Source: a virus. Taken from it: a stretch of 38,954 nucleotides of DNA. A program made the position numbers and the translations under genes. Position 1 is the first letter of the stretch, and each line of letters opens with the position of its first letter. The stretch is from IMG/VR virus record IMGVR_UViG_3300048587_000297, positions 1 through 38,954 of that record; one strand, written 5' to 3'. The notes below the pieces were generated by a model that saw only the letters and a program-made list of their open reading frames with translations, searched no databases and had not been told where the DNA came from. Below are positions 11,026-38,954 of the stretch, in pieces.

Positions 11026-11028
11026 AGA

Positions 11029-11771: not shown

Positions 11772-11846
11772 TGCGGTGACTCTCCAAAAAGCGGGCGCCA
11801 TCCGTGCGCCCGTGGAAGGGCTGGCGCGGTTGCCCGCGCCAGCGGT

Positions 11847-13097: not shown

Positions 13098-13115
13098 GAC
13101 GTGTGGTGCTCCTGG

Positions 13116-14618: not shown

Positions 14619-14687
14619 CTTGCCTCCGAAGATCCGGGCCACGAATGGCCCGGACCGGATCAATGCAGCGGACTACGCTTCAGGCGA

Positions 14688-15587: not shown

Positions 15588-15611
15588 GGATTACTCCGAA
15601 AGGGGCGGGGA

Positions 15612-16427: not shown

Positions 16428-16456
16428 GGTCGGTTCCTATCAGGGGGTCGGTTCGA

Positions 16457-17425: not shown

Positions 17426-17452
17426 GGCGCCATGCTCGGCGCGTGCCTGCGG

Positions 17453-17475
17453 AAAGTATTGGGAACCAGTTCCAA
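17453..17475 (-). promoter_or_regulatory. Candidate late promoter and activator site, leftward operon
   Basis: On the minus strand the 17-mer TTGGAACTGGTTCCCAA (17475-17459) is followed at once by TACTTT (17458-17453), a possible -10. The core GGAAC-TG-GTTCC is a perfect dyad. No consensus -35 precedes it. The same 17-mer with one change, followed by TAC, precedes the rightward lysis/head operon at 29949. Both sites are 5' of late operons, so a Mor-type activator site is inferred. Confidence 0.7.
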
Positions 17476-17485
17476 GCAGTGCGGC

Positions 17486-17731
17486 TTAGCGGTGGTACAT
17501 GTTCCGGCACCAAGCGACTATGTTCCTGGTGCTGTAGGTACAGTCAACACCGCTCTTGAGTCGCACCGTAATCTGGTCACCAACGACGCGCTGGTAGATT
17601 CCAGTCATCGTGCGCGTGCCAATTTCGGTTGGCACTCTCAGAGCAATCAAGTCTACGGGGCTGAGGCTATCGGCCGATGTGAAAGGCCGCCAGTGTGGCC
17701 CCAGCGTCGCGATGTCGAAAGCCTCGCTCAT
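17486..17731 (-). CDS. Small protein of unknown function
   Basis: 81 residues from ATG 17731, overlapping the preceding stop (ATGA). The sequence has a beta-rich C-terminal half, TMTGIYQRVVGDQITVRLKSG, ending CTYSTRNIVAWCRNMYHR. No family was recognised. It is the last gene before the late promoter, so it belongs to the early/middle transcript. Confidence 0.7.
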   Translation of the reverse strand: MSEAFDIATLGPHWRPFTSADSLSPVDLIALRVPTEIGTRTMTGIYQRVVGDQITVRLKSGVDCTYSTRNIVAWCRNMYHR

Positions 17732-18414
17732 CGTGGCCCACCGATTGCCTTCTGCGACGTGCCGACGCTGCGATCCAGGCGCGCCTTGCTTCCGAGCGCG
17801 TGCCCCATGGCGTGGTCGTTGCACATCACGCCTTTCGACGCCCGCGACTCGCGCGCACCGAAGGTCTGGACGGTTGCGGCCGGGTACGTCCGGGCGATCA
17901 GCGCGGCGGTTCTTGCACGGTCATCGTCTGTGAGATCCCAAGCGCTGAGAACCTTGGAGACACCGTGCGCCCAGCCCACACTGAACACATCACCGCGAGC
18001 CGCGCGGTTCTTTGCGAGGCGCACTCGATTCAGATGCTTGCGCCGATCGCGTTCGAGCTGGCGCAGCAGCACGGTGAATGCGTACTCCGCCAGCTGGGTG
18101 CGCCATGCCGGCCCGAAGAAATGGAAGCGCCAAGCGTGACCTCTACCGCCGACGATGGCCTCCACACCGAATGCCGAGCAGATGCAGTTGACCAGGCCGA
18201 CTGCATACACCGGAGGATTGGCACCTCGACGCGCCGCGGTGGTGACTTCAACGGTGTCGTCGGGCTGCGTTTCGTGTACCTCCTGCTCGTCGATCGCGTG
18301 CTGGCGCATCAGCGCCTGAGCCTGGCGCATCGCCGCCGCGGCCTCGTGCATGTTGCTGCTCTTGCCCAGGCGCAACAGCTTCTTGACCTTGTCGCGGGCC
18401 TGATCTCGCGTCAT
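17728..18414 (-). CDS. DUF2786-domain protein
   Basis: 228 residues. The N-terminal about 40 residues match DUF2786: KVKKLLRLGKSSNMHEAAAAMRQAQALMRQHAI. A second domain (about 65-210) is the type often joined to it, with FHFFGPAWRTQLAEYAFTVLL, helices rich in R/K, and SVGWAHGVSKVL. Members are frequent in Mu-like phages directly after the Mor activator, but no activity is known. It is separated from mor by 133 bases that may hold a middle promoter. Confidence 0.82.
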   Translation of the reverse strand: MTRDQARDKVKKLLRLGKSSNMHEAAAAMRQAQALMRQHAIDEQEVHETQPDDTVEVTTAARRGANPPVYAVGLVNCICSAFGVEAIVGGRGHAWRFHFFGPAWRTQLAEYAFTVLLRQLERDRRKHLNRVRLAKNRAARGDVFSVGWAHGVSKVLSAWDLTDDDRARTAALIARTYPAATVQTFGARESRASKGVMCNDHAMGHALGSKARLDRSVGTSQKAIGGPR

Positions 18415-22089: not shown

Positions 22090-22403
22090 CAGTGAGTACT
22101 CCTGCGGTCGGCGTGGGCTGTGGCGTGCGCGGCTTCGAGCGCGCCCTTGTCTTTGGGGTTGCGGGGATGGGTGCAGGTATTCGCGCGGGCCTGGGCAGTG
22201 TTGGCGCGCATATCCACACAGGCGGCGCACTCGCACTTGTTCCTGGCGACGACGTCCGCCTGAAGACGTGCCGCGACCAGGATGCGATCGACCAGCCGCC
22301 GGCCGGCCTCCGATCCGGACAGCTCGATCAACGAACCGAGCGTGCCGAACTTGTCCAGGTGGAAGTTCATCAGCTTCGCGAGGGCTTCGACGGAGGTGTT
22401 CAT
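22089..22403 (-). CDS. Small early protein with Cys cluster
   Basis: 104 residues from ATG 22403, overlapping the muB-type stop (ATGA). Residues about 55-65 hold CECAACVDM, and one more Cys lies at about 78, a possible metal site. The C-terminus is rich in A, H, R and T. Function unknown; this slot after MuB varies among Mu-like phages. Confidence 0.7.
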   Translation of the reverse strand: MNTSVEALAKLMNFHLDKFGTLGSLIELSGSEAGRRLVDRILVAARLQADVVARNKCECAACVDMRANTAQARANTCTHPRNPKDKGALEAAHATAHADRRSTH

Positions 22404-23581
22404 CGGCCACCTTCCTTAACCATCTCGGCCGTCACCTTCGGCGCGCCCAAGCTCGCAGCCAGGTTGAATGCCCGCGCCAGCACGTTGTGCACGGCCAGCG
22501 GGTACAGGTTGCTGGACTTGCCGCGGCTGGTTCCCGATTGCGTGGTCATGCGCGACACCAGCGCATCGAGCGCGAGCGGATCGACCAGGTCGGTGAGCTT
22601 CAGGCCGAGGCGCTCGAACCGATGCGTGAGGTAGCCCGGCAGGTTCTGATCGAGCGGCGGCAGGTGCACCAGCTCGACGCGCTGGACGACCTCGCGCACC
22701 TCGGGGTTCTGCTCGCTGAGCTTCGCGGCGAGCTCCGGCTGGCCCAGCAGGATGATGCTGATCAGCGGGCGCAGGCCGTCCTTCAGTTCGATGAAGCGCT
22801 TCAGGTGCTTCAGCGTCGGGATCGCCAGGGCATGCGCTTCCTCGATCAGCAGCAGGTGCCGGTGGCCGGCGCGACTGCTGTCGCGCAGCGTGTTGTGCAG
22901 CTGGCGCCAGCGCGCATCGGGGCTGCCCATCACGCGGGTGAGTGGCGCCACCGTGGCCATGATCGCGTCGGCGATGTGCGTGGCCTTGAGGATCTTGCCC
23001 TTGCTCTCGCTGTCTTCCATCGCCAGGACATAGGGCAGCGCGACCAGCACCGGCTGCGCATCGCGGTGCAGACGGTCGATCAGTTCCTCGCGCAGCGTGG
23101 ACTTGCCGGCGCCGCTCTCGCCGATGACGGCCAGAAAGCCGCCGTGGCGCACCTTGTCCATCATCGCTTCGCGAACGTAGCGGATGTCCGGGCTGCCGGT
23201 GTAGACGTCGGCCAGCTCGCGGGGATCAGCGAAGGGATCGCGCGCCAACTGGAAGTGGCGGCGGGTGGATTCGCTCAATGTCTCTTTGCGTAGTAGCATT
23301 TCAGTCTCCTGCTTCGGTGGGGTCATTGCTTTGCTGGTACCCGGCCTCGACGTGTTGACGCACGTCGGGGCCTTTTCTTTGCGCGACCAGTCGGCGGTGA
23401 TGCCGCGGGCGCGCAGGAACTCGGTGATGCGGGTGCGCACCAGGGCGCGGTCACGCGCCGGCCACACACCGCGGTTGGCGATCTGGCTGATCGCCGAGCG
23501 GGACACGTCCGCCGCGCGGGCGATGTCCAGCAAGTGAATCCGGTGCTCGGCGCAGATGGCGCGCAGGCGCAACGGGGTCAT
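22400..23581 (-). CDS. MuB-type AAA+ target-selection ATPase
   Basis: 393 residues. Residues 1-60 form a lambda-repressor-like HTH (IARAADVSRSAISQIANRG), as in Mu B. After a linker, the AAA+ core has Walker A GESGAGKST (154-162), Walker B HLLLIEEAH (242-250) and a sensor-like LGQPEL (279-284). The ATPase binds DNA, picks the target and activates the transposase strand-transfer step; it also gives target immunity. Length is greater than Mu B (about 310) because of a longer linker and core. It overlaps the transposase gene by 4 bases. Confidence 0.92.
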   Translation of the reverse strand: MTPLRLRAICAEHRIHLLDIARAADVSRSAISQIANRGVWPARDRALVRTRITEFLRARGITADWSRKEKAPTCVNTSRPGTSKAMTPPKQETEMLLRKETLSESTRRHFQLARDPFADPRELADVYTGSPDIRYVREAMMDKVRHGGFLAVIGESGAGKSTLREELIDRLHRDAQPVLVALPYVLAMEDSESKGKILKATHIADAIMATVAPLTRVMGSPDARWRQLHNTLRDSSRAGHRHLLLIEEAHALAIPTLKHLKRFIELKDGLRPLISIILLGQPELAAKLSEQNPEVREVVQRVELVHLPPLDQNLPGYLTHRFERLGLKLTDLVDPLALDALVSRMTTQSGTSRGKSSNLYPLAVHNVLARAFNLAASLGAPKVTAEMVKEGGR

Positions 23582-25389
23582 GCGGCACCGCCGGAGATCG
23601 TGCGCAGGGCCGGCGTCAGCAGATGCAGCACCGCCGTGTCGAAGTCGTCCTCCGTCAAGCCGTCCGGCCAGCGCGCCAGGGCACGCGCGTAGTGCGCGTC
23701 CTTGTCCCAGGCCATGCCGCGGTCTTCGATGCGGCGCTTGAGTTCGCGCACCGTTTCCAGGAAGGACCAGCGGCGTGGCTCGTAGGTCGGCCGGATGCTG
23801 GGAATGCGCTCGGTGCCTTCCCGGTCGGCCGGTGCGTCAACCACTCGTGGCGTGCCCGCACGCGGCAACATCGGCAGCGCCGGCTTATCGGTGATGTGCT
23901 TCATCGGATCGATCGACCCACCGAACGCACGGCGCTTGGCCTTGCGCGCGGCAACTGCCTCGGCGTCGGTGGCCACGTCCATCGTGAGCCGTTCGATCTC
24001 TTTGCGGACGGCATCGACTGGCGAGTCAGGTACCGCCTTGAACTCGGTCCCGATCTGCGCCGCGTTGCGCTCGAACCCGAAGTCGCCGATCTCGATCTGC
24101 GGTGCCAGGTAGTACGCCGGCCGGCCGTCTTCGCCGGTGGTGACAATCCGCAGGGTGCCGGGGTCCAGCGCGTTGGTGATTACCAGCACTTCGCCGTCGT
24201 TGATCACGCCCGGCAGGCCGGACACATCCCACACCTTGCCCTTGTACTTCACCCGGTAGTCGCGCACGCGGCGGGCTTCGGGGTCGGTGGTGCACAGCGC
24301 GCGCAGGGTCTCCACTGGCGGCGCCAGAATCAGTTGCTCCTGGGTGATCCGGGACCAGCCGGCGCGGCGCGTCATGCCGGTGCGGCTGTGCACCTGCGTG
24401 GCGTTGTAGTCGCGGCCCCAGGTGGCGGCAAGGGTGTTGATTTGTTCCAGGCTGGTGATCGGTGCCGCCAGCTTCAGCGGCGCCTCGAACTTGGTCTCGA
24501 CGATGTACTGCGCGTTCTCGCACTGCCCCTTGGCGCGCGCATTGCCGACCGCGTTGGGAATCACTTCGATGCCCAGCGCGGCGAGCAGATTGCGCACCAC
24601 GTTGGTCAGGATGAAGCTGCCCTGGTCGGCCATCAGGTACTTGCAGATGCCGTGCATCACATCGCCAGGGCGCGGCGTCATCGCGTAGATCAGCGCGGCG
24701 ATGAAGTTGGCCGCGCTCTCGGCACCCTGCACATAGAACACCACGATGTAGCCGCTGGCGTGGTCGGTGATCACGTAGCGCCACAAGCGGCGATCATTGA
24801 TCTTGACGAAGTTCTGCGGCTTGCCGCGGTAGAACTCGCGCTGCGGCATCACCCGCGTGCCATCGTCGGCCAGGTAGAACTGACGGCTCACCGAGGCGTC
24901 GATCTGCCAGCAATGGTTCGGGCACGGGCTGCTCAGTCGGCTGGCCGGCGTGGGCGCGGCCAGTTGACCAGGGTGCATGTGGTAGTGGCGCAGGGCGCGG
25001 CGGATCGCCGAGTTGCTCAGTGGTGTCCACTCGCCCGTGGTCGGATCTACGCGGCCGGCGCTGATCTTGCCATTGCTGCGCAGCACATCGAGCGCGGTAT
25101 CGATCGACACCTCGCCGGTGCCGGTCAGCCGCCGCGTTTCTTCTACCGTCGCGGAGATGATCAGCGCCTCTTCGCGGCTCAGCGAATGGCTGCCCTTGTC
25201 GGTGCGCCGCTTGCGCGGCTTGCTCACCGTCACCTGATTGAGCTTGCTGATCAGCGTCTGATAGGTCATGCCGAGGCGCTTGGCCTCGGCCTGATAAAAG
25301 GCCGTGCGCCCGCCATGCTTGATCGACGCGAGGCGCGTGGCCACATCGGCCAATTCCGACATCAATGCTGGCGTGGGGGCGCGCGCCAT
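23578..25389 (-). CDS. DDE transposase, MuA type
   Basis: 603 residues. The catalytic triad is D164 (WQIDAS), D255 (MADQGS) and E291 (QCENAQ); D255 and E291 are 35 residues apart, the D35E spacing. The N-terminal 150 residues are helical and basic and should bind phage ends; the region after about 370 matches the small beta-barrel and C-terminal part of Mu transposases. It nicks the ends, joins them to target DNA, and drives both integration and replicative transposition with the MuB-type protein. The DUF3102-like gene ends 3 bases upstream. Confidence 0.96.
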   Translation of the reverse strand: MARAPTPALMSELADVATRLASIKHGGRTAFYQAEAKRLGMTYQTLISKLNQVTVSKPRKRRTDKGSHSLSREEALIISATVEETRRLTGTGEVSIDTALDVLRSNGKISAGRVDPTTGEWTPLSNSAIRRALRHYHMHPGQLAAPTPASRLSSPCPNHCWQIDASVSRQFYLADDGTRVMPQREFYRGKPQNFVKINDRRLWRYVITDHASGYIVVFYVQGAESAANFIAALIYAMTPRPGDVMHGICKYLMADQGSFILTNVVRNLLAALGIEVIPNAVGNARAKGQCENAQYIVETKFEAPLKLAAPITSLEQINTLAATWGRDYNATQVHSRTGMTRRAGWSRITQEQLILAPPVETLRALCTTDPEARRVRDYRVKYKGKVWDVSGLPGVINDGEVLVITNALDPGTLRIVTTGEDGRPAYYLAPQIEIGDFGFERNAAQIGTEFKAVPDSPVDAVRKEIERLTMDVATDAEAVAARKAKRRAFGGSIDPMKHITDKPALPMLPRAGTPRVVDAPADREGTERIPSIRPTYEPRRWSFLETVRELKRRIEDRGMAWDKDAHYARALARWPDGLTEDDFDTAVLHLLTPALRTISGGAA

Positions 25390-26598: not shown

Positions 26599-27002
26599 GA
26601 GCGAGCCCCGCCATCTTCACTTCGTCGCGAGCGGTGCGGTTGACTTTGGCCGGCCCGCAACACGTCGGTCTGCCGGTTAATCGCGCGCGCGACACTGAGC
26701 AACGAGATACCGATCCCAACCAGGTGAGACTCAATCCGCTTCATGCGCTCGTCGAGGCTCGGCGAATGCAAGTCTTTGCCGCCAGCAGGCAGATTCGTGC
26801 CAAGGATGTGGTCAACATCCAGATTTAGATCCGGACGCCGCTGAGCGAGGGCGCGCAGATCGCGTTCCGGAAAACTTCCCTTTGTCTTTCGAGCACTGAA
26901 CGCTTTCTGTGAAAGGCCAAGCATTGCGCCGACTTCGTAGTCGGCTGCGAGCCCTAACGCGACCTTCAGCCGAAGCAGCTTCGTATTGAAGTCGGTGCTC
27001 AT
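26595..27002 (-). CDS. CI-repressor-like HTH protein
   Basis: 135 residues. The N-terminal 75 residues match the phage CI repressor HTH pattern: KVALGLAADYEVGAMLGLSQ, AFSARKTKGSFPERDL, then DLNLDVDHILGTNLP. The C-terminal half has a helix (SLDERMKRIESHLVGIGISL) that could dimerise, but no S24 peptidase. It lies in the lytic direction, so it may be a second regulator or an early-phase brake rather than the lysogenic repressor. Confidence 0.82.
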   Translation of the reverse strand: MSTDFNTKLLRLKVALGLAADYEVGAMLGLSQKAFSARKTKGSFPERDLRALAQRRPDLNLDVDHILGTNLPAGGKDLHSPSLDERMKRIESHLVGIGISLLSVARAINRQTDVLRAGQSQPHRSRRSEDGGARS

Positions 27003-27223
27003 GCCGCAGCACTCAAACCGGGCGTAGACTCTTGCACCTTGAGTCGCAGCTTCACGGCGATGTCATGGGCGCGACCGTAGTGCGCTTTCGAAACGCCGTT
27101 AAGAACTCGATACACCTCGTAGCGCTGATAGCCGTGTTCGCGCGCCCAGGTGGTGAACGTAATGCCAGCAGCTCGAAACTGCTGTTTGACCTGTTCGGGG
27201 GTCAGCGTTGTGAGACTGCTCAT
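26999..27223 (-). CDS. Ner/Cro-like early regulator
   Basis: 74 residues from ATG 27223. Pattern: TPEQVKQQFRAAGITFTTWA, then REHGYQRYEVYRVLNGVSKA and YGRAHDIAVKLRLK, typical of small phage DNA-binding proteins in BcepMu-type phages. As first gene of the lytic transcript it probably represses the repressor promoter, as Ner does in Mu. Longer in-frame starts upstream would run through the operator and repressor start and are rejected. Confidence 0.85.
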   Translation of the reverse strand: MSSLTTLTPEQVKQQFRAAGITFTTWAREHGYQRYEVYRVLNGVSKAHYGRAHDIAVKLRLKVQESTPGLSAAA

Positions 27224-27259
27224 GTCGTTTGCCCTTTTTGATACGTCGATGGCAGATAC

Positions 27260-27288
27260 ATGATGAGAACCAAAGTTCTCATTGTCAA
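27260..27288 (-). promoter_or_regulatory. Leftward early promoter with embedded operator
   Basis: On the minus strand a perfect -35 TTGACA (27288-27283) is followed by 17 bases and CATCAT (27265-27260), a moderate -10. The spacer is filled by the operator dyad. The ATG of the Ner-like gene is about 37 bases downstream of the -10. Confidence 0.75.
27263..27282. promoter_or_regulatory. Phage operator ATGAGAAC-CAAA-GTTCTCAT
   Basis: Perfect 8-base inverted repeat with 4-base spacer in the divergent control region. It covers the early promoter spacer and half of its -10, so a bound repressor would block early transcription. It also lies just upstream of the repressor gene, allowing autoregulation. 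Confidence 0.85.
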
Positions 27289-27297
27289 GGGGGAAAG

Positions 27298-27870
27298 GTG
27301 AATCTTGGATCTCGCATTGTGGCTGCGCGCAAAGCGCTCCGCCGCACTCAAGCAGAGCTGGCCGCTCAGTGCGGTGTGTCCCGCGAGATGTGGGGGAAGT
27401 ACGAGAGGGGCGCCGCAATCCCAGGCGGCGAGATCCTCACTCGAATGGCCGAGATTGGAATCGACGTAGGGCCAGCGCTCACTGGCGAACTCAAGCGCGA
27501 GGGCGACTTCATCAGGACCGAAGAGGCACTGCGTGCCGCGCGCGGGGACGCGCCATCACCTGATGCAGAGGCGGCGCTCAATTCGCTGGCACGGGAAGAG
27601 CGCGTCCGCGCCGCTCAGCTCGTCGCCATTCGCGCGCTGCTAATGAACATGTCGCGGCCATCGTTCGAGGGTTGCGTAAACCTTGTCGTCAGCTACAGCC
27701 GAATCAGCTTGGACGACCAGGCTGCACTGGTCCGTCACGCCTCAGCGTTGGATTCCGTCAAAGACTCAGGAGGTGCTTACCGCCCTAAGCCGGCTGGGCC
27801 TGACCAGCCCAGCATCCACGAGACACCTCGCAGCTACGCCGGCCGCAAGAAACCATCGGAGGCCGCGTGA
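27298..27870 (+). CDS. Lysogeny repressor, XRE-type HTH
   Basis: 190 residues from GTG 27298, preceded by AAGGGGGAAAG; the longer in-frame version would begin upstream of the operator and is rejected. Residues about 5-60 form an XRE helix-turn-helix (RTQAELAAQCGVSREMWGKY). The C-terminal part is helical with no S24 or other peptidase motif, so induction by RecA-driven self-cleavage is not evident. It is divergent from the lytic early genes with the operator between them. Its transcript probably continues through four further lysogeny genes, ending with the rex-like pair. Confidence 0.88.
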   Translation: MNLGSRIVAARKALRRTQAELAAQCGVSREMWGKYERGAAIPGGEILTRMAEIGIDVGPALTGELKREGDFIRTEEALRAARGDAPSPDAEAALNSLAREERVRAAQLVAIRALLMNMSRPSFEGCVNLVVSYSRISLDDQAALVRHASALDSVKDSGGAYRPKPAGPDQPSIHETPRSYAGRKKPSEAA

Positions 27871-28265
27871 CCCTGAAAGCTGAGATCAGCGGCAGGCCCT
27901 TGAGCGAAGACGAACTACACGTTCGCGAACTCAACAAGCGGGCAACCGAAATCAAAGCGACCGATATCCACGGCGCGGTGCAGTGCATCAAGGAGGCGCA
28001 TGACATCGCGAAGCGCACGGGTGCTTTCGGACATCCGATGGAGTTCTGGTTGCGCTTGCCACTGTTCCTCCAGGAAGCTGGTGAGATGGAAGCCGCAGAG
28101 GTGGTGTTCCACCAGATCGAGCGAGAGATCAAGGCCGGCGTCTACGGCGATGCAAGATCAGCCTTTCTGCGCATCCTCAACCGCAAGCGCGACTTGGCGC
28201 GCGACCGTGAATCGCGCGCAATCGCAAAGCGCGAGGCGCGAACCAAGAAAGCGAAAACCACATGA
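27867..28265 (+). CDS. Unknown protein in lysogeny operon
   Basis: 132 residues, starting with GTG that overlaps the repressor stop (GTGA). Helical, TPR-like look: HVRELNKRATEIKATDIHGA, then AVQCIKEAHDIAKRTGAFGH and WLRLPLFLQEAGEMEAAEVV, ending in a very basic tail. Possible protein-protein interaction module. Co-expression with the repressor suggests it is made in the lysogen, perhaps for immunity or host fitness. Confidence 0.75.
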   Translation: MTLKAEISGRPLSEDELHVRELNKRATEIKATDIHGAVQCIKEAHDIAKRTGAFGHPMEFWLRLPLFLQEAGEMEAAEVVFHQIEREIKAGVYGDARSAFLRILNRKRDLARDRESRAIAKREARTKKAKTT

Positions 28266-28597
28266 CCGAGAAACTCCCCGGCGACTTCGGCGCTAACTGG
28301 TCGCCCAAGATCGTGGCTGTAGTGGCAGTCGGCCTTGCAGTGATCGGTGGCGCCGCGTACTACCTGCCTCTGTGGAACGCCCAGCGCACAGTCGCCGCGC
28401 GACTGATTGATCCGGAGTCGGTGCTGTTCCGCGAGGTTCGTCGTGGCCAGGACGCGATCTGCGGCGAGTTCAATGGGAAGAACAGGTTCGGCGGCTATAC
28501 CGGATTCGGCCGCTTCATCGTAACAGGCAGTGGCCTGGTGTTCATGGATGCGCCAGAGGACCAGGCTGCCAGCAAGCGCTGGGCGAGCTACTGCTGA
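28262..28597 (+). CDS. Membrane-anchored small protein in lysogeny operon
   Basis: 111 residues. One membrane helix at about 16-37 (IVAVVAVGLAVIGGAAYYL), then a soluble domain with DPESVLFREVRRG, ICGEFNGKNRFGGYTGFGRF and a C-terminal Cys. The D-P-x-S-x-x-F-R plus CGE-x-N-x-K-N-x-x-GGY-x-GF pattern is a widespread uncharacterised family in proteobacterial genomes and prophages. It overlaps the previous gene by 4 bases and lies just before the RexA-like gene, so an exclusion role is possible but unproved. Confidence 0.78.
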   Translation: MTEKLPGDFGANWSPKIVAVVAVGLAVIGGAAYYLPLWNAQRTVAARLIDPESVLFREVRRGQDAICGEFNGKNRFGGYTGFGRFIVTGSGLVFMDAPEDQAASKRWASYC

Positions 28598-28642: not shown

Positions 28643-29593
28643 ATGAACATCTCGTATTTCACCTATGACTTGGCGCGGACCTCCGCACCGGGGAATTTCA
28701 CCCGCATGGATCTTCGCGCGCTCGTATCGAAGTGGGCGGCGATGCAGAAAAAGAAATTGGTGAGCGTGGACCATGGTGAAGACAAGCTGTTCCTGCTCCC
28801 CGAGGCGGCCGGCGTGTATCTCCTCGTCCAGACTCGCGACGAGGAACTGGCCCGCGTACTCAGCCGTTCCAACAAGCAAGCGAAGGACGTAAGGAGTGCG
28901 CTCGCGACCGGCGACTCATTGGGGTTTGCGAGTTACCTGTATGTGGCGGACCATTGGCTTGCGCTCGGGTGCAGGGTGCTTTCCCCGCGAGCGAGAGCGT
29001 GTGAACATTTTCTAAACACAATGCTCCGCGCGGTCGGCCTACCATTGCTGCTACGCATGACGGCGGTCCAGACGAACTTGACCACCAAGGATGCGCGGCA
29101 ACTCTCATTTGTGAGTTCGGTTCGAGTGGCCGTCACGGATACATCGAAGCTCACTCAAGATATCGTAGCGGCGTTGGGTTTAGCGAACTCGAAGTACAGT
29201 GCCGGCGAGATCGAGATAAAGTTCAAGCCCAAGAATCCCGGTAGCAATGCGCCTTTGTTGAAGTCCTTGTTGTCGAACGTCCCGAATGCTGACATCGCCA
29301 GGCTTCAGATCCGAGCGAAGACAGCACTCCAAGATCAGCTGGCTGACTACTTCGTCGTTGGGTCTGGAAACGTCCGGGACAACATCGACGATGATCCTGC
29401 GACGGTAAGCCAGCATGTTCGAAGCGCCGCAGCGTCTAACGTTGCGTTGCAGATGGAGCTTCAGGAGCACACGACAAATGTCGACGCGGAGAAAAATCTT
29501 CCTGGCTTGCTTGATGACCTGCTTAATCGAGCTGCCTCTGTGCATCTATCTAACTCCCTGGTTCCGGTCGATGGCGTCGAGGTGGTCCCTTGA
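28643..29593 (+). CDS. RexA-like exclusion protein
   Basis: 316 residues from ATG 28643, with AAAGGA upstream. Compared from memory with lambda RexA (279 residues): co-linear matches include D-x-x-L-x(5)-RS-x(5)-D then SLGF-x-S-[FY]-L-[FY]-V (here residues 66-101), a TTKDA segment (147-151), a I-K-F-K-P-K strand end (192-197) and an RAK-x(4)-D helix near 224-231. By my hand count the 36-residue core has 14 identities. In lambda, RexA senses an infecting phage and triggers the RexB channel, stopping growth of the infected cell. Here it lies downstream of the repressor and is directly followed by a four-helix membrane protein, the same order as cI-rexA-rexB. About 35 residues longer at the C-terminus than lambda RexA. 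Confidence 0.78.
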   Translation: MNISYFTYDLARTSAPGNFTRMDLRALVSKWAAMQKKKLVSVDHGEDKLFLLPEAAGVYLLVQTRDEELARVLSRSNKQAKDVRSALATGDSLGFASYLYVADHWLALGCRVLSPRARACEHFLNTMLRAVGLPLLLRMTAVQTNLTTKDARQLSFVSSVRVAVTDTSKLTQDIVAALGLANSKYSAGEIEIKFKPKNPGSNAPLLKSLLSNVPNADIARLQIRAKTALQDQLADYFVVGSGNVRDNIDDDPATVSQHVRSAAASNVALQMELQEHTTNVDAEKNLPGLLDDLLNRAASVHLSNSLVPVDGVEVVP

Positions 29594-29942
29594 ACCAGCT
29601 GGGCAATTTGATTTCGGCGGAGTGATTGCTGGATCTGCCTTCGCAGCAATTGCTTTGCTCGTCGGCGTTGTAAGCCTTGCCAGCATCAGCGCAGGCACGA
29701 AACGGTTCGCTCAATGGCGGACCAAGGGGTACATGTGGTTCTGGGCTGGGGCCATCGTCCTATCGATCGTGCACTTCGCGGTTGCCTTCGCGAGCGGCCT
29801 GTCCGTCTTTTTCATTAAGGCCCCTTCTGCCTTCATTGTTCAGTTCGGAGTGGTTCAGCTTGCCTCTGGGGCCCTTGCATTGATCATCGTTTCGACCCCG
29901 ATGCTGGCACTCGCACTTAGGTCGGACGCTGATCTCTACTAG
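29478..29942 (+). CDS. RexB-like four-helix membrane protein
   Basis: 154 residues from ATG 29478, with AGGAG ten bases upstream, overlapping the RexA-like gene by 116 bases in another frame. Four membrane helices at about 7-27, 47-70, 86-110 and 117-147. Length and topology equal lambda RexB (144 residues, four helices), and the loop after helix 2 (GTKRFAQWRTKGYM, 73-86) matches RexB's R-R-L-A-K-I-R-E-Y-G-Y-M loop as I recall it. RexB forms an inner-membrane channel that depolarises the cell when RexA is activated. Assignment rests on order, topology and this loop. Confidence 0.75.
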   Translation: MSTRRKIFLACLMTCLIELPLCIYLTPWFRSMASRWSLEPAGQFDFGGVIAGSAFAAIALLVGVVSLASISAGTKRFAQWRTKGYMWFWAGAIVLSIVHFAVAFASGLSVFFIKAPSAFIVQFGVVQLASGALALIIVSTPMLALALRSDADLY

Positions 29943-30048: not shown

Positions 30049-30345
30049 GTGGACGAGAAGCCGAATTTGTTCCGCCGCACCTTTGCGCGCATGCAGGCGC
30101 ATCCGGTGTTGTGGTTGTTCCTGATCACCTTCGCGGTGACCGCGTTCCTCAACCCGGTCAAGGTCGGGTTGTTCGCCTGGGCGGTCAGCAAGCTCGCCGG
30201 GTTTGCGTTCCTCGGCCACTGGATCGATTCGCGGTTCTTTGCCGATGCGCAGCCGAACAAGTTGCAGGGCATAGAGCAGGGCACGGCCTGGAAGCGCAAG
30301 GCGCTGATCATCGCGGCGGCGATTGTGGCCGGGGCGCTGGCGTGA
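30049..30345 (+). CDS. Putative holin
   Basis: 98 residues from GTG 30049, with GGGAG about 7 bases upstream. Hydrophobic segments at about 20-38 (PVLWLFLITFAVTAFL) and 40-60 (VGLFAWAVSKLAGFAFLG), then a polar stretch and a final hydrophobic helix ALIIAAAIVAGALA. Two or three membrane spans in a small protein directly before the endolysin fit a holin. It would time lysis by opening the inner membrane. Its stop overlaps the endolysin start. Confidence 0.75.
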   Translation: MDEKPNLFRRTFARMQAHPVLWLFLITFAVTAFLNPVKVGLFAWAVSKLAGFAFLGHWIDSRFFADAQPNKLQGIEQGTAWKRKALIIAAAIVAGALA

Positions 30346-31094
30346 AGGGGCTGGCGTTCCTGGCGCTGGTGGCCTGGGTCAGTTTCTTCGTGCTGTACCT
30401 GCGCGATGCGCTCTGGCAGCGCGAGCCGCCTTACTGGCTGGAGCGCCTGGTGGTTTCGTCGGTGTGTTTGTTGTCGCTGCTTCTGATCGGCGCGGTGCTC
30501 GGCTCTAGCGCCTGCGCGGCCACTCCTGCGCAGCCTGTCAGCATCAAGGTTCCAGAGGCTTCGGTGCTCTATCGACTTCGCGTCGAGCGCGCGGCCAACG
30601 ACTACTTTGGCATATCCGCATCGCCGGCACGCCTGGCTGCGCAACTGCACCAGGAGTCCGCCTGGCGCCCGGATGCGCGCAGCAAGTACGCGTCGGGGCT
30701 GGCGCAGTTCACGCCGGCAACGGCCAAGTGGCTGCCTGCGGCGTGCCCTGAAATCGGCACGTTCGATCCGTGGGACCCGAGCCAGTCGATTCGCGCCGCG
30801 GCTTGTTACGACCGCTGGCTGTATGACCGTGTGACCGGAGCCAGCGAGTGTGATCGCTGGGCATTTGCCCTGTCTGCCTACAACGGTGGTCTCGGGTGGG
30901 TGAATCGTGACCGCCGCAGGGCGTCGGCTACCGGAGCCGATGGTGCTCGCTGGTTCGGTCACGTTGAACTTCACACGTCCCGCGCCAGCTGGGCGCGGGA
31001 CGAGAACCGATCGTATGTGCGCCGCATCCTGCTGCGCATCGAACCTGCCTACATCGCCGCCGGCTGGTCCGGCGCCGCGGTGTGCGCGCAATAG
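30342..31094 (+). CDS. Membrane-anchored lytic transglycosylase endolysin
   Basis: 250 residues from GTG 30342. Two N-terminal membrane helices (about 3-20 and 36-58) precede an SLT-type lysozyme fold: catalytic E105 in QLHQESAWRP, GLAQF at 119-123, and AYNGG at 179-183. It cleaves peptidoglycan glycan strands. Two helices before the enzyme are unusual: they could hold the enzyme at the inner membrane, or the first could belong to a SAR-type export signal. A Cys at 58 is not in a proper lipobox. Coupled to the holin by a 4-base overlap. Confidence 0.85.
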   Translation: MKGLAFLALVAWVSFFVLYLRDALWQREPPYWLERLVVSSVCLLSLLLIGAVLGSSACAATPAQPVSIKVPEASVLYRLRVERAANDYFGISASPARLAAQLHQESAWRPDARSKYASGLAQFTPATAKWLPAACPEIGTFDPWDPSQSIRAAACYDRWLYDRVTGASECDRWAFALSAYNGGLGWVNRDRRRASATGADGARWFGHVELHTSRASWARDENRSYVRRILLRIEPAYIAAGWSGAAVCAQ

Positions 31095-33247: not shown

Positions 33248-33769
33248 ATGGCCGCCCGCTCCAAGATCACCCAGCTCCCCGAGGCCGTCCGCAAGGAACT
33301 CGAACAGCGCTTGATCGCGCACAACTTCGCCAACTATGACGGCCTGGCCGAGTGGCTCGGCGAGCAGGGTTTCGAGATCCACCGATCGAGCGTCTATCGC
33401 TTCGGCGCGCAGTTCGAAGAACGGGTACGCGCGCTCAAGGCGAGCACCGACCAGGCGCGCGCGATCGTCGAGGCATCGCCCGATGACGATGGCGCCATGA
33501 ATGAGGCGCTGATGCGCCTGACCCAGCAGATGGCCTTCGATCTGCTGATGCAGTTGCAGGTCGATCCGGAGTCGATCGAGTTCCCGAAACTGGTCCGCGC
33601 GATCGCGGATATGAACCGGTCCTCGGTGACGCTCAAGAAGTACCAGAGCGAGGTGCGCGAGCGCGTGGCAGCCGCGGCCAAGAACCTGGGCGACGTGGCC
33701 AAGCGCCGCGGAATGAGCAAGGAAGCGGTCGACGAGATTCGCCGCGAGATCCTCGGGATTGCCGCGTGA
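33248..33769 (+). CDS. Small terminase-type protein (DUF3486, Mu gp27)
   Basis: 173 residues. Family signs: RSKITQLPEAVRKELEQRLI, NYDGLAEWLGEQGFEIHRSS, and VYRFGAQFEERVRALK, then a helical dimerisation part and a basic C-terminus. DUF3486 proteins act as the small packaging subunit that recognises the phage end (pac) and loads the large terminase. Its stop overlaps the large-terminase start as GTGA. Confidence 0.92.
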   Translation: MAARSKITQLPEAVRKELEQRLIAHNFANYDGLAEWLGEQGFEIHRSSVYRFGAQFEERVRALKASTDQARAIVEASPDDDGAMNEALMRLTQQMAFDLLMQLQVDPESIEFPKLVRAIADMNRSSVTLKKYQSEVRERVAAAAKNLGDVAKRRGMSKEAVDEIRREILGIAA

Positions 33770-35331
33770 CCACCAACCCGCTGACCGAGGCGATTGCCAA
33801 CACGGCGGGCGCTCAGGCGCCCGCGGCGTTGATGCCGTATCAGCAGCGCTGGATCGCCGACACCTCGCCGCTGAAGATTGCCGAGAAGGGCCGTCGAATC
33901 GGCCTGACCTGGGCGGAGGCCGCGGACAACGTGTTGACCTCGGCGGCCGAGCGCAAGGGCGGCGGGCAGAACTGCTACTACATCGGCTACAACATGGACA
34001 TGGCGATCGAGTACATCGAAGCCTGCGCCATGTGGGCGCGCGTGTTCGACAAGGCCGGCAGCGCGATCGAGGAAGGTGAAGAAATCTTCCGCGACGAGAA
34101 GGACGCCGAGCAGCGGATCAAGACCTATACGATCAAGTTCCCGAGCGGATTCCGCATTGTGGCGCTAAGCAGCCGCCCGGCGAATCTGCGCGGCAAACAG
34201 GGCGTGGTGATTATCGACGAGGCCGCATTTCACGGCGCCCTCGATCAATTACTGAAGGCGGCGCTGGCGTTATTGATTTGGGGCGGGCGCGTTCGGGTTA
34301 TCTCCACACACGATGGCGACCAGAATCCATTCAATGAATTGCTGAATGAGATTCGTGCCGGCAAACGCAAGGGCAGCATTCACCGGATTACTTTCGGCGA
34401 TGCGATTGCTGATGGCCTGTTCCGTCGCGTGTGCATGCGCCGCGGCATGGATTGGTCGGAGGAAGCGCAGGCCGCGTGGATCGCGGACGTTTATGCGTTC
34501 TACGGCGATGCGTCTGAGGAAGAGCTGGACGTCATTCCGTCGCAGGGCTCCGGCGCCTGGTTGACCTCGGCGCTGATCGAGGCGCGCATGACCGATACAC
34601 CGGTGCTGCGCCATACCTGCCCGAAGGACTTCGAGCAGCTGCCCGACAAAGAGCGCCACGAGGTTGTTCAGGACTGGCTCGAATTCGAAGTGGCGCCGCG
34701 TCTGGCCGCGCTCGATCCGGATGCGCAGAGTGTGTTCGGCCTCGACTTTGGCCGCAGTGGCGACCTGTCGGTGGGCGTGCCGGCACAGATCGACAGCGGG
34801 TTGAAGCGGCGCGTGCCGTTCATCCTGGAACTGCGCAACATGCCGCACAAGCAGCAGATTCAGGTGTGCTCGTTCGTGCTGTCCAGGCTTCCGCGGTTGC
34901 GCAAGGCGGCGGTGGATGCACGCGGCAACGGACATGCACTGGCGGAGTTCCTGGCGCAGGAGTTCGGCTGGGCAATCGTCGAACTGGTGATGCTCAGCGA
35001 GGGCTGGTATCGCGAGCACATGCCGCCCCTGAAGGCTGCGTTTGAAGACGACACGATCAGCATCCCGCGCGATCGCGACACGCTGGCCGATCTGCGCGCG
35101 ATCAAGATGGTGAAGGGCGTGGCGCGGGTGCCGGACACGCGCACCACCGGAAAGGATGGCGGCAAGCGCCACGGCGACACCGGCATCGCGGTGGCGTTGA
35201 TGCACTACGCCAGTCGGCAGGAATGGGAGTTGATCGAGATCCACCGCGTGCAGCCCGGCGCGGCCGCAAATGACACGGACCGCGACATCCGGCGCGGTGC
35301 CGGCTGGCGCTCTCAGAAAGGCATCTGGTGA
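33766..35331 (+). CDS. Large terminase (Mu gp28 type)
   Basis: 521 residues from GTG 33766. The ATPase half has a Walker A-like EKGRRIGLTW (40-49), Walker B VVIIDE (147-152) and motif III ISTHDG (179-184). The nuclease half begins near GLDFGRSGD (325-333) with the first metal-binding Asp, and continues with VDARGNGHALAEFL and a final HGDTGIAVALMHYA. It pumps DNA into the prohead and cuts headful lengths including host DNA next to the prophage ends, as Mu does. Confidence 0.95.
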   Translation: MTTNPLTEAIANTAGAQAPAALMPYQQRWIADTSPLKIAEKGRRIGLTWAEAADNVLTSAAERKGGGQNCYYIGYNMDMAIEYIEACAMWARVFDKAGSAIEEGEEIFRDEKDAEQRIKTYTIKFPSGFRIVALSSRPANLRGKQGVVIIDEAAFHGALDQLLKAALALLIWGGRVRVISTHDGDQNPFNELLNEIRAGKRKGSIHRITFGDAIADGLFRRVCMRRGMDWSEEAQAAWIADVYAFYGDASEEELDVIPSQGSGAWLTSALIEARMTDTPVLRHTCPKDFEQLPDKERHEVVQDWLEFEVAPRLAALDPDAQSVFGLDFGRSGDLSVGVPAQIDSGLKRRVPFILELRNMPHKQQIQVCSFVLSRLPRLRKAAVDARGNGHALAEFLAQEFGWAIVELVMLSEGWYREHMPPLKAAFEDDTISIPRDRDTLADLRAIKMVKGVARVPDTRTTGKDGGKRHGDTGIAVALMHYASRQEWELIEIHRVQPGAAANDTDRDIRRGAGWRSQKGIW

Positions 35332-36920
35332 TGGCAAAGACCTCGCGCATTGTTGGCCCTGATGGTCAGCCGATTGAAATGGACCTGCTCGATCAGGAGA
35401 TCTCCGCACCGTCGATCGCCGGCATCCGGCAGCCGTGGCATGCGTCGGTGGCGTCGAACCTGACACCCACGCGCCTGGCGCAGATCCTGGCATCCGCGGC
35501 GGAGGGCGACGCGCACGACTACCTGACGCTCGCCGAGGAAATGGAAGAGCGCGACATGCACTACGCGTCTGTGTTGGGGACGCGGAAGCTGGCGCTGGTG
35601 GGGTTGGAAGTGCGGGTGGAATCGGCCACTGACGATGCCGCGGACGTGGCGCGCGCCGACGCCGTACGCGAACTGGTCGATAGCGCTGACTTTGGCGAAC
35701 TGATCGCCCACCTGGTGGATGCGCTCGGCAAGGGGTACGCGGTTTCCGAGATCCTGTGGGACCGCAGCCAGAAGCTGTGGGTGCCGCGGTTTGCGCCGCG
35801 CGATCCGCGGTTCTTCACCTACGATCGCGACACTGGCACGGTGCTGCGCCTGCTCGATGCGCAGGACTCGGCGCAGGGCATCCAGATGCCGCCGTACAAG
35901 TTCGTGGTGCACCAGCCGCGTATCCGCTCGGGCCTGCCCATCCGCGGCGGCCTGGCGCGCCTGGCTGCGCCTGCGTACATGTGCAAGGCGTGGACCTGGC
36001 GCGACTGGATGGCCTTCGCCGACATCTACGGCATGCCGATGCGCATCGGCACCTATGGACCCAACGCCAAGCCGGCCGATATCGCGCGCCTGATGGCGGC
36101 CGTCACCAACCTCGGCAGCGACGCCGCGGCCGTGATGTCCGAATCGACCAAGATCACGTTCGAGGCCGCGGCCAACGTGGCCGGCGCGGGCGACTTCTTC
36201 GACAAGCTGGCCACGTTCTGGGACAAGCAGATCAGCAAGGGCGTGCTCGGTCAGACGATGACCGCAGACGACGGCTCTTCGAACTCCCAGGCGCAGGTGC
36301 ACCAGCTGGTGCGCCTCGACATCCTCACCGCCGATGCCCGCGCGCTGAGCACCACGCTGGCCAAGCAGGTGGTGCGCGCGTTCGTCGATCTCAACTTTGG
36401 CCCGGCCGAGCGCTGCCCGAAGCTCACGGTGGTGGTGCCGGAACCCGAGGACACCAAGGCGCTGGTAGAGGCGTTGGCCAAGCTGGTGCCGCTGGGGTTG
36501 CGGGTGGAACAGTCGGTCATTCGCGACAAGCTCGGCATTCCAGATCCGGCGGACGATGCGGAGATTCTGTTGGCGCCGGCCGCTGCATCGCCGTCAGTGC
36601 CGCCGGCAAAGCCGGCAGCCAATCGCGCTGCCAATGCAGCAAAGCGCTCGTCGAACAATGAAGAGCCGACCGCTGCCGACTTGATCGCCGAGCGCATGGC
36701 CATCGAAGCAGCCGGCGCGCACAGCGACTGGTTGCGCCGGATTCAGGAGATCGTCGACAGCGCCGACAGCATGGAAGCGTTGCGCGACCAGCTGCTCGAG
36801 GCCTTCGCGGAACTGCCGACCGCTGACTTGGCGCTCGTGATGGAAGCCGGGTTCGCGGTGGCCGAGTTGGCCGGTCGAATGGACGCCAGGCAGGAGTCCG
36901 GCCGTGGCGGCAAGCGCTGA
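35331..36920 (+). CDS. Portal protein (DUF935, Mu gp29 type)
   Basis: 529 residues from ATG 35331 (GTG at 35328 also in frame). Hallmarks: IRQPWHASVASNLTPTRLAQ, EEMEERDMHYASVLGTRKLA, GYAVSEILWDRS, then MCKAWTWRDWMAFADIYGMP and GVLGQTMTADDGSSNSQAQ. It forms the dodecameric ring at the head vertex through which DNA passes. The C-terminal 120 residues are more variable. It overlaps the MuF gene by 17 bases. Confidence 0.95.
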   Translation: MAKTSRIVGPDGQPIEMDLLDQEISAPSIAGIRQPWHASVASNLTPTRLAQILASAAEGDAHDYLTLAEEMEERDMHYASVLGTRKLALVGLEVRVESATDDAADVARADAVRELVDSADFGELIAHLVDALGKGYAVSEILWDRSQKLWVPRFAPRDPRFFTYDRDTGTVLRLLDAQDSAQGIQMPPYKFVVHQPRIRSGLPIRGGLARLAAPAYMCKAWTWRDWMAFADIYGMPMRIGTYGPNAKPADIARLMAAVTNLGSDAAAVMSESTKITFEAAANVAGAGDFFDKLATFWDKQISKGVLGQTMTADDGSSNSQAQVHQLVRLDILTADARALSTTLAKQVVRAFVDLNFGPAERCPKLTVVVPEPEDTKALVEALAKLVPLGLRVEQSVIRDKLGIPDPADDAEILLAPAAASPSVPPAKPAANRAANAAKRSSNNEEPTAADLIAERMAIEAAGAHSDWLRRIQEIVDSADSMEALRDQLLEAFAELPTADLALVMEAGFAVAELAGRMDARQESGRGGKR

Positions 36921-38145
36921 AGTCCGCGGCATCCTGAAGCGTCCGTTCGCCGAGCAGGTCGCGTTCTTTCGCGGCAAGCTCGGCAATCTGGTACCGACGG
37001 CGGCGTGGGACGATCTGTGGAAGGAGCAGCACGACCGCGCGTTCATGGTCGCAGGCGCGGCCAAGGCGGACTTGCTGGCGGACCTTGCCGCGGCAGTGGA
37101 TCGTTCGATCAGCGACGGCGGCAGCATCGGTCAGTTCCGCAAGGACTTCGACGCCATCGCCGCGCGCCACGGCTGGGCCTACAACGGCGAGCGCAACTGG
37201 CGCACGCGCACCATCTACCGCACCAACGCCGCCACCAGCTACGCGGCCGGGCGCCTGGCGCAGTTGCGCGAGGGCGGCTTCCCGTTCTGGATGTACAAGC
37301 ACGGCGGTTCCGCAGACCCGCGCCCGCAGCACCTGGCGTGGGATGGCATGGTGCTGCCGGCCGATCACCCATTCTGGAACACCCACAGCCCGCCGAATGG
37401 CTGGGGCTGCTCCTGCCGCATCGTCGGCGTGCGCGACAAAGACATGGCGCGCAGGCTGGGCGGCAAGCCGGACAAGGCGTTGCCCGAGGGCTGGGACGAG
37501 GTCAATGCGAAGACCGGTGAGCTTGCCGGCATCGACAAAGGTTGGGGGTATCAGCCGGGGGCGACGGCTGACGCGCTATCCGTCGCTGGTATGAAGCTGG
37601 AAACGCTTCCATCGCCCCTTGCTTCTTCGCTTGGCGATGCGCTTGCGCCGGTCATCGATCGCCAATTTCCAGCTTGGGTAGATGACGTCCTCGACGGAAA
37701 GACTCACCGCCCAGGCCTCGTTGGCGCGATCGCACGTGCAGACATCGATCTTCTCGATGCGCGCGGAATAGCGCCGTCAGGCGTTGAGATCTACGTAAAG
37801 CCCGGACTACTTCATGGGCCGAAGGCGTTACGTCATCAGAAGAAGGGCGACGAGCTCAGTCCGGACGAATGGCGCGCCCTGCCATCGAGGCTGCGCAATC
37901 CAATGGCAGTCCTGCTGGATGTTGACACCAGGAATCTGATCTACGTATTGGCGGGGCCGGACAGGGTTCCACAGTTCGCGGTCGCGCTCGACTACTGGAT
38001 CAAGGCGGATGGCAGGAAGCAACAGGTCAACGCGATTGTGTCGGCATACCGTCCGCGCATCGCCGATCTGCGCGCGCGCGTTCTCGCGCCAGACGCACCC
38101 GATCGGGCTGGGGGATTTCGACTGTTGAGAGGTAAGATCGGATGA
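36904..38145 (+). CDS. MuF head morphogenesis protein with C-terminal nuclease-like domain
   Basis: 413 residues from GTG 36904. Residues 1-175 are the MuF domain, with the conserved H..G..P...P..G..C.C pattern at 143-171 (LAWDGMVLPADHPFWNTHSP, then GWGCSC). After a linker, residues about 290-395 look like a PBECR-type (barnase/EndoU/colicin E5-D/RelE-like) domain: GVEIYVKPGLLHGPKALR, LPSRLRNPMAVLLDVDTRN, then a V/Q-rich strand pair. MuF enters the virion and the cell with DNA; fused nuclease domains are proposed to act as toxins against rivals or the host. Fold assignment of the C-terminal domain is from pattern and needs confirmation. Confidence 0.88.
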   Translation: MAASAEVRGILKRPFAEQVAFFRGKLGNLVPTAAWDDLWKEQHDRAFMVAGAAKADLLADLAAAVDRSISDGGSIGQFRKDFDAIAARHGWAYNGERNWRTRTIYRTNAATSYAAGRLAQLREGGFPFWMYKHGGSADPRPQHLAWDGMVLPADHPFWNTHSPPNGWGCSCRIVGVRDKDMARRLGGKPDKALPEGWDEVNAKTGELAGIDKGWGYQPGATADALSVAGMKLETLPSPLASSLGDALAPVIDRQFPAWVDDVLDGKTHRPGLVGAIARADIDLLDARGIAPSGVEIYVKPGLLHGPKALRHQKKGDELSPDEWRALPSRLRNPMAVLLDVDTRNLIYVLAGPDRVPQFAVALDYWIKADGRKQQVNAIVSAYRPRIADLRARVLAPDAPDRAGGFRLLRGKIG

Positions 38146-38229
38146 TGGAGGGACGGAAGTCCCCTCATGCACGGCACGGGTCGCGCCCGTGGTGGCGTGG
38201 AATCCGGCTTGCCTCGCCTCACCATCCGA
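38138..38229 (+). ncRNA. Candidate structured RNA element between MuF and gpG genes
   Basis: A 7-bp outer stem (38138-38144 with 38223-38229) encloses three hairpins: 148-154 with 159-166 (GGAA tetraloop, one bulge), 175-180 with 186-191, and 192-197 with 215-222 (2-base bulge); numbers are the last three digits. Together this looks like a four-way junction. The MuF stop lies inside the outer stem. It could be a cis-acting translational element or processing site. A 33-codon reading frame also crosses it. Confidence 0.4.
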
Positions 38230-38249
38230 CAACCCAAGGTTAGCACGGC

Positions 38250-38756
38250 ATGGAAATCAAGGTGACATTGGCGGCTGAACAGGCTGACGCCCTGTTCAAA
38301 GAGCTGATCGCCCGCGGCACCAACCTGACACCCCTGATGCAGGATCTCGGCGAGTACCTCACCGAGACCACCAAACAGCGCTTCCAGACCAGCACCGCGC
38401 CGGACGGCCAGAAGTGGAAGCCCAACGCCCAGGCCACCTATCTGGCATACCTCGGCGCCTTCAAAGGCAGCTTCGGCAAGACCGGCAAGATCACCAAGGG
38501 CGGCGCCGGCCGCGCGATGGGCAAGAAGCCATTGATCGGCGAGACCCGGCGACTGTCCAGCGAGATCTACTATCAGGCCGATCGGCAGAGCGTCGAGATC
38601 GGCTCCGGCCTGGTCTACTCGGCGATCCACCAGTTCGGCGGCCAGGCCGGCCGCGGCCTTTCGGTGAAGATTCCGGCCCGTCCATTCCTCGGAATCAGCT
38701 CCAGCGACGAGGCCGCAATCACCGACATGGCCGGCGCTTACCTTGCTGGCTTGTAA
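38250..38756 (+). CDS. Virion morphogenesis protein (Mu gpG type)
   Basis: 168 residues. Family pattern: N-terminal LTPLMQDLGEYLTETTKQRF, then DGQKWKPNAQATYLA, GETRRLSSEIYYQADRQSVE, and SAIHQFGGQAGRGLSVKIPA followed by RPFLGIS. Members act in tail completion or head-tail joining (phage_tail_S). It is the last gene of the rightward operon; the stop codon abuts the palindrome at 38755-38777. Confidence 0.93.
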   Translation: MEIKVTLAAEQADALFKELIARGTNLTPLMQDLGEYLTETTKQRFQTSTAPDGQKWKPNAQATYLAYLGAFKGSFGKTGKITKGGAGRAMGKKPLIGETRRLSSEIYYQADRQSVEIGSGLVYSAIHQFGGQAGRGLSVKIPARPFLGISSSDEAAITDMAGAYLAGL

Positions 38757-38777
38757 TGTTGCGTCAGTCGCAACATT
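38755..38777. promoter_or_regulatory. Palindromic site near right end (copy 3 of 3)
   Basis: Perfect inverted repeat AATGTTGC-N7-GCAACATT with core GTCAGTC. It overlaps the gpG stop codon and matches the sites at 121-141 and 971-993. On RNA it could also form a hairpin at the end of the late transcript, but no T-tract follows directly (only TTCTTTCC). Confidence 0.65.
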
Positions 38778-38790
38778 CTTTCCGATCCGT

Positions 38791-38830
38791 TTCGCCAGCA
38801 TTCGCTTTGTTTCGCCTAGTTTCGGCCTTT
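38791..38830 (+). repeat. Phased decamer repeats near right end
   Basis: Four consecutive 10-base units each begin TTCG (38791, 38801, 38811, 38821); three begin TTCGC. TTTCG recurs again at 38838. A 10-base period keeps the motif on one face of the helix, as expected for a row of protein-binding sites, such as transposase sites at a phage end. Confidence 0.6.
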
Positions 38831-38869
38831 ATCAAGCTTTCGACCCCTGATCTTTCAAGCACCTGCTCA
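38828..38869 (-). repeat. Candidate right prophage terminus
   Basis: Read inward on the minus strand it starts TGAGCAGG, includes TGAAAG, and reaches the decamer GCTTGATAAA at 38837-38828, mirroring the left end. Alternative CA ends at 38857 and 38861 are possible. Host-like coding sequence starts directly after 38869. Confidence 0.4.
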
Positions 38870-38870
38870 T

Positions 38871-38954
38871 GTGGCCAGTTTCGGCAATCTCACCATCGAT
38901 AACGCCGGCAATGGCTACACACTGACTGCGGCGAGCGCCGGACTGACCGGTGCA
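38871..38954 (+). CDS. Host gene fragment, Ig-like repeat surface protein
   Basis: 28 codons open to the window end: VASFGNLTIDNAGNGYTL followed by TAASAGLTGA. The pattern F-x-N-L-T-I-x-x-A-G-x-G-Y-T-L-T-A is the repeat of large bacterial adhesin or Ig-like repeat proteins. It lies outside the prophage. If this is a true integration site, the prophage interrupts that gene, but the left flank does not read as its other half. Confidence 0.55.
   Translation, partial: MASFGNLTIDNAGNGYTLTAASAGLTGA

Follow-up and report, generated by a model that had tools for sequence, protein, structure and literature searches.

The window analysed here is the entire IMG/VR virus record IMGVR_UViG_3300048587_000297, 38,954 bases in length. 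Its repressor gene heads a putative lysogeny operon that ends in a rexA-like and a rexB-like gene, referred to below as rexAB. The features needed for what follows are listed here.

22400..23581, minus strand: MuB-type transposition protein (phrog_296, 5.2e-65)
23578..25389, minus strand: MuA-type transposase (phrog_310, 4.5e-84)
26999..27224, minus strand: HTH regulator of Ner type, oriented divergently to the repressor (phrog_925, 4.1e-27; start read from sequence)
27225-27297: intergenic control region between ner and the repressor, 73 b
27298..27870, plus strand: HTH repressor, 190 aa, heading the putative lysogeny operon (Pfam HTH_31/HTH_3, PHROG regulator; GTG start read from sequence)
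27867..28265, plus strand: second gene of the operon, 132 aa, function unknown, beginning on the stop codon of the repressor gene (overlap GTGA)
28262..28597, plus strand: third gene of the operon, 111 aa with a single hydrophobic segment, beginning on the preceding stop codon (overlap ATGA); PHROG families of unknown function
28643..29593, plus strand: rexA-like gene, 316 aa, soluble product (PF15969, PADLOC, PHROG, fold)
29463..29467, plus strand: AGGAG, likely rexB ribosome-binding site within rexA, 10 nt 5' of the ATG (read from sequence)
29478..29593, plus strand: 116 b coding in two frames, for the end of rexA and the beginning of rexB; same relative frame in the branch described below and in Sbash
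29478..29942, plus strand: rexB-like gene in the +1 frame of rexA; 154-aa product with four predicted transmembrane helices (PADLOC, shuffles, model)
30051..31094, plus strand: lysis module, with a small membrane protein in the position of a holin and a lytic transglycosylase (phrog_669, 1.8e-46 for 30342-31094)

The phage and its repressor operon

MuA-type and MuB-type proteins, a divergent repressor and Ner, and Mu-type head genes recognized by PHROG (portal phrog_113, head protein F phrog_220, protease I phrog_328, major head phrog_371), with a neck gene too, place the window among the transposable, Mu-like phages, as the first-pass annotation had proposed from the letters alone. Ner is 61% identical to its homologue in the Mu-like contig L024, and the N-terminus of the repressor shares 58-63% identity with its counterparts in L034 and L039, two sister phages that are also Mu-like. 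The late genes lie in two arms, at 1-18414 on the minus strand and at 33248-38902 on the plus strand. Terminase, portal, F and neck follow the lysis module on the plus arm, and protease I, major head and tail tape measure follow the early genes on the minus arm. In L034 and L035 the late arms are swapped relative to repressor and transposase, while L024 is collinear as in Mu; the exchange could be either a natural rearrangement or an effect of assembly.

From repressor to rexB all genes run on one strand, with stop/start overlaps up to 28597, followed by a gap of 45 b before rexA; the lysis module begins 108 b 3' of rexB, and its small membrane protein and lytic transglycosylase adjoin each other in L034 and L035 too. 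On the plus strand, we found neither an intrinsic terminator between the repressor and the lysis module nor any sigma-70 promoter of consensus type; co-transcription of rexAB with the repressor is thus plausible. The pair closes the repressor operon, in agreement with the lysogeny-operon position first suggested for it. The lambda order of repressor, rexA and rexB that was claimed at the same time is indeed present, but not the adjacency, as two open reading frames (27867-28265 and 28262-28597) intervene. With a GC content of 56.5%, where the whole contig has 65.1%, rexAB falls within the lowest 1.3% of 1300-b windows. This low GC had been taken to indicate a mobile cassette; neighbouring genes are low too (ner 53.8%, the reading frames at 26595 and 27867 59.1%), so that GC supports the cassette weakly, and it is rather the different genes found in this position in sister phages, described below, that back it.

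RexA

On sequence and model evidence, the product of 28643..29593 is a member of the RexA family. Its start is the ATG that lines up with the starts of its homologues. PF15969 is the sole Pfam family returned by hmmscan (3.4e-39, 135.3 bits against a cut-off of 25), with residues 1-232 covering positions 1-234 of the 235 in the profile, and the protein also matches PADLOC RexA (8.7e-32) and the PHROG 'RexA-like exclusion protein' (6.8e-16). Lambda RexA, 8twq, is the only solved relative found (phmmer 9e-11). An AlphaFold model, for which the input was the window protein and 14 relatives, has a pLDDT of 76, with residues 299-316 below 50. Its top Foldseek match is 8twq (E 2.4e-15), to which VIA-align assigns a Z of 17.2 across 265 residues; the runners-up are CENP-N chains (Z 7.3), RdgC (5.7) and Iml3 (5.5), and the crystal structure of lambda RexA has likewise been reported to have RdgC and the Iml3/Chl4 kinetochore subunits as remote relatives (PMC11077077). 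Because four lambda-type sequences were in the alignment used for the model, the model and its fold match depend in part on the sequence evidence. The homology to RexA proposed at first pass is thus confirmed by profile and by fold, and so is the SLGF core on which it was based, DSLGFASYLYV here and ESLGFPSFLFV in lambda RexA.

The global rmsd between the model and 8twq is 16 Å, read here as the two predicted domains standing at a different mutual angle; in lambda RexA, such a domain opening has been proposed for DNA binding (PMC11077077). Replacement of lambda R219 and K221 by alanine abolishes DNA binding (PMC11077077), and in the residue map these DNA-contact residues have R224 and K226 as their counterparts in the window. 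The lambda D215-R261 contact, on the other hand, is lost (R220/A264 here), as it is in the rest of the branch.

RexB and its chain of evidence

The 154-aa protein is more divergent, sharing only 11-22% identity with its relatives. PADLOC RexB detects it (1.8e-5, residues 7-140) and PHROG RexB gives 0.08, but the Pfam RexB family PF15968 scores 15.6 bits against a cut-off of 27, and most RexB proteins of the same overlapping branch are likewise under that cut-off. We used 1000 block shuffles that preserve the hydropathy profile as a control. On a branch profile built without the window, the protein scores 26.0 bits and the best shuffle 17.9, and on a combined RexB profile without the window none of the 1000 shuffles reaches its score. 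Against the lambda-type RexB profile alone it is at noise level (15.0 versus 15.3 for a shuffle; 1 of 1000 as high). The branch itself, however, connects to lambda-type RexB in a profile-profile comparison with the window in neither profile, at a probability of 98% over 135 columns. The AlphaFold model has four helices (pLDDT 87), and the four hydrophobic helices are placed as in lambda RexB; all RexB compared have four at similar positions, with the exception of L012, in which a simple scan sees three. In BFVD, the model has no fold match at E <= 0.001, and the Sbash gp31-like protein A0A0A7RXT6 ranks fourth at E 0.87.

These comparisons support a RexB-like protein, homologous to RexB by a chain of sequence evidence and not a formal member of PF15968; since the evidence is chained and the Pfam cut-off is missed, we use the name 'RexB-like'. 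The claim of RexB homology made at first pass therefore holds through PADLOC, intermediates and shuffles and fails at the Pfam threshold. The RexB-like helix number stands as claimed, and the basic-loop motif KGYM/YGYM stands in part: KGYM does align with lambda YGYM, but other branch members have GYL, GFL or GHL, so that the full motif is not conserved.

An overlapping branch of Rex pairs

Two reading frames of 316 and 154 residues overlapping by 116 bases, both on the plus strand, were described at the outset, and this arrangement turns out to be shared. All 16 branch pairs in which rexB is intact overlap, by 71-116 b and in a single relative frame (length = 2 mod 3), whereas none of seven lambda-type pairs does, their genes being separated by 11-24 b. 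The window's pair, initially called lambda-type, thus belongs to the overlapping-gene branch and not to the lambda branch proper. Pairs with proven function overlap too, Sbash 30/31 by 41 b and CarolAnn 44/43 by 26 b, with the same frame relation, and we have accordingly dropped the overlap as a novelty of this branch.

Single-sequence scans of viral_contigs with the window RexA or transposase gave no match, and alignments were therefore required for that collection; genomes and plasmids were scanned as well. In the phage collection, no protein or DNA match to the window was found except three weak RexA matches. Two records there appear misnamed or contaminated: H12 (MW057783), named Campylobacter phage CJLB-4, holds a RexA identical to that of lambda, and H3 (MZ614453), 'Salmonella phage MS2 LVA', is a Lederbergvirus. 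Among 369 gammaproteobacterial genomes and 398 genomes sampled across the phylum, just one besides the centre was found to have the family.

The branch to which the window belongs has the longer RexA, of 304-318 aa, and the nearest relative of the window's protein, in L022, is 34% identical. Three more Mu-like contigs, L022, L024 and L027, have a confirmed transposase and rexAB closing the repressor operon. In prophages, the branch is found in L023 (integrase-linked), L029 and the Acinetobacter loci L025 and L026, and in L028, L031 and L032 a lambda-type CI is followed by rexA and then rexB. Furthermore, it is present on small Acinetobacter plasmids (L014-L017), in an A. tianfuensis contig, flanked there by ordinary host genes (L007), on a gammaproteobacterial chromosome (L012) and, partly masked, in Methylovulum (L011).

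Several loci bear on the state of the genes. In the A. pittii plasmid p2_100004 (L014:3501-6147), ISAba26 of the IS256 family splits rexB and leaves rexA open; the other Acinetobacter plasmids have both genes intact and annotated as hypothetical. In Xenorhabdus budapestensis (L006:1980-3303, L010), rexA lies in two broken frames with an intact rexB downstream. A divergent short RexA/RexB pair without overlap lies beside a replication gene (L018:458-1716, L019:2378-3636) on 5-kb mobilizable plasmids of Yersinia ruckeri, Serratia and Citrobacter; this pair too is annotated as hypothetical, and the position of lambda R219 is S.

A cargo position and its history

In all four Mu-like phages (the window, L022, L024 and L027), rexAB lies 3' of the repressor and 5' of the late module. 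Sister phages hold other genes in the same slot, of 102 and 174 aa in L035, 322 aa in L034, 177 aa in L039 and 156 aa in L097, which leads us to treat rexAB as exchangeable cargo. At least one of the best 80 transposase relatives carries rexA, namely the L022 record itself (= L038), many of these loci being incomplete. The slot contents are located at L035:3524-4360, L034:4517-5485, L039:5992-6525, L097:6460-6930 and L022:8590-9672; they include two short proteins that look membrane-like by eye and an HSDR_N-domain protein, which are candidate exclusion systems.

In the RexA tree, the window pairs with L022 (96/97) and L024 pairs with the integrase prophage L023 (96/88). The RexB tree has the identical two pairings, and this agreement indicates that the pair is inherited as a unit. 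A single entry of rexAB into Mu-like phages, with the four phages as one clade, is rejected at p-AU 0.011, a value to be read with the long branch of the window (2.0) and the deviating composition of the window and L022 in mind. Since the four-phage clade is rejected, it is likely that rexAB entered Mu-like phages at least twice, though the same two features call for caution. Taken more broadly, we lean, by a modest margin, towards rexAB as recurrent, exchangeable repressor-operon cargo of transposable phages that was gained at least twice, the overlapping branch moving among transposable phages, integrase-type prophages, small plasmids and chromosomes. If so, the non-overlapping pair of lambda would be the atypical one, and Rex would be a general mobile defence module and no lambdoid peculiarity.

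Proposed function and its alternatives

The homology, fold, DNA-contact residues, membrane topology, gene order and recurrence in Mu-like phages described above suggest that rexAB is probably a two-gene prophage exclusion (abortive infection) cassette, with RexA as sensor and RexB as membrane effector. In a lysogen, rexAB would be transcribed together with the repressor. RexA, as a dimeric, non-specific DNA binder with an RdgC-like fold, would sense an infecting phage by its DNA, its DNA-protein structures or its proteins and would then activate RexB, a predicted four-helix inner-membrane protein. RexB may oligomerise to form a pore or channel; membrane potential or integrity would be lost, and growth would halt before the invader matures. 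For co-transcription, sensing, activation of RexB by RexA, pore formation and exclusion, this scheme draws by analogy on lambda, Sbash, CarolAnn and P. putida. Several points count against it: the RexB score below the Pfam cut-off and the low identity of RexB to its relatives, the lack of sequence similarity to Sbash gp30 and gp31 in profile comparison, and the failure to find a consensus sigma-70 promoter on the plus strand. Roles also vary among Rex-like systems: in mycobacteriophage Butters, according to PMC12894663, the membrane protein restrains a soluble effector.

It is conceivable that rexAB mainly tunes the phage's own lysis-lysogeny switch and that exclusion is a by-product, given that RexA of lambda needs no RexB to stabilise the lytic state (PMC11077077) and that the pair belongs to the repressor operon in each of the four Mu-like phages and comes after a repressor of CI type in L028, L031 and L032. 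We nevertheless consider this unlikely, as the branch also resides on small Acinetobacter plasmids and in a chromosome at a distance from phage genes, settings that offer no switch of this kind to tune, and as deletion of rexAB in P. putida left repressor promoter activity unchanged (PMC12894663). Somewhat less probable still is a reversal of roles, in which the soluble RexA would be the toxic effector and the membrane protein would keep it inactive until infection. The Rex-like pair gp30/31 of Butters is described as working in this way (PMC12894663 and references there), but the window RexA is far closer to lambda RexA, whose effector is RexB, and in P. putida overexpressed RexA is toxic only with RexB (PMC12894663). 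The A. pittii plasmid in which ISAba26 splits rexB also speaks against the reversal, since an open rexA there should harm the cell if RexA were a restrained toxin.

The least probable of these readings, to which we give very little credence, accepts RexA as genuine and takes the membrane protein for an unrelated four-helix replacement of RexB. The missed Pfam cut-off, the lack of a significant BFVD fold match and the noise-level score on lambda-type RexB profiles, which one shuffle in 1000 equals, would fit it. Against it stand the PADLOC match, the absence of any shuffle among 1000 that reaches the protein's score on the long-clade and combined profiles without the window, and the homology of long-clade to lambda-type RexB that is found with the window left out. 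Moreover, the overlap and its frame match the rest of the clade. An exclusion cassette of RexA sensor and RexB effector thus remains our preferred reading, and it carries a question of its own: Mu-like phages replicate by transposition, which raises the issue of how this phage would escape excluding itself.

Relation to known Rex systems

The window pair and lambda RexA/RexB (NC_001416; 8twq) have in common the RexA family and fold, the DNA-contact R and K, a four-helix RexB, and a repressor followed by rexA and rexB in a single orientation. They differ in that RexA identity is 18%, the window RexA has an extra C-terminal tail of about 35 residues, lambda has a 15-b gap between rexA and rexB where the window has its overlap, two extra genes separate repressor and rexA, and the window phage is transposable. 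Sbash gp30/gp31 and CarolAnn gp44/gp43, both experimentally proven defence pairs (PMC6426596, PMC6426606), also consist of a soluble protein followed by a four-helix membrane partner, and the CarolAnn pair is co-transcribed with its repressor, as proposed for the window. They come, on the other hand, from integrase-type phages of Actinobacteria, and profile comparison of Sbash gp30 and gp31 with the window proteins reveals no sequence similarity.

By description, P. putida RexABpp (PP_5643-5644) is similar in being prophage-borne, with two genes between repressor and pair, a DNA-binding RexA and a four-helix RexB; RexA overexpression there leads RexB to damage membranes (PMC12894663). RexBpp is, however, longer, with mutations reported up to residue 181, and host and prophage type are different. 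The uncharacterised pairs of L022, L024, L027, L023, L025, L028, L029, L031 and L014-L017 are like the window in belonging to the overlapping branch with the same frame, and unlike it in their elements and cargo contexts.

Only five RexAB-like systems have been described according to a 2026 paper (PMC12894663), and in the open-access literature we came across none that reports rexAB from a transposable phage. The exclusion genes near the repressor of the B3-like phage Fc02 are different genes (PMC9936078), and PMC4378225, in which rex and Mu-like phages are mentioned together, draws on lambda rex only as an analogy, its relevant passages reporting no rex gene in these phages. The initial suggestion that the window extends Rex to another phage class therefore needs qualification: Rex was already known beyond lambda, from actinophages and a P. 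putida prophage (PMC6426596, PMC6426606, PMC12894663), and what appears to be new is the transposable-phage class, in which cargo genes are likewise accommodated where the repressor operon ends. The trigger of lambda RexA has been an unsolved problem for 70 years, and this branch, whose RexA is clear from its sequence and which occurs in transposable phages, plasmids and chromosomes, adds systems for comparing trigger and effector. One record considered for these comparisons, KX557273, was rejected as CarolAnn; it is BatStarr.
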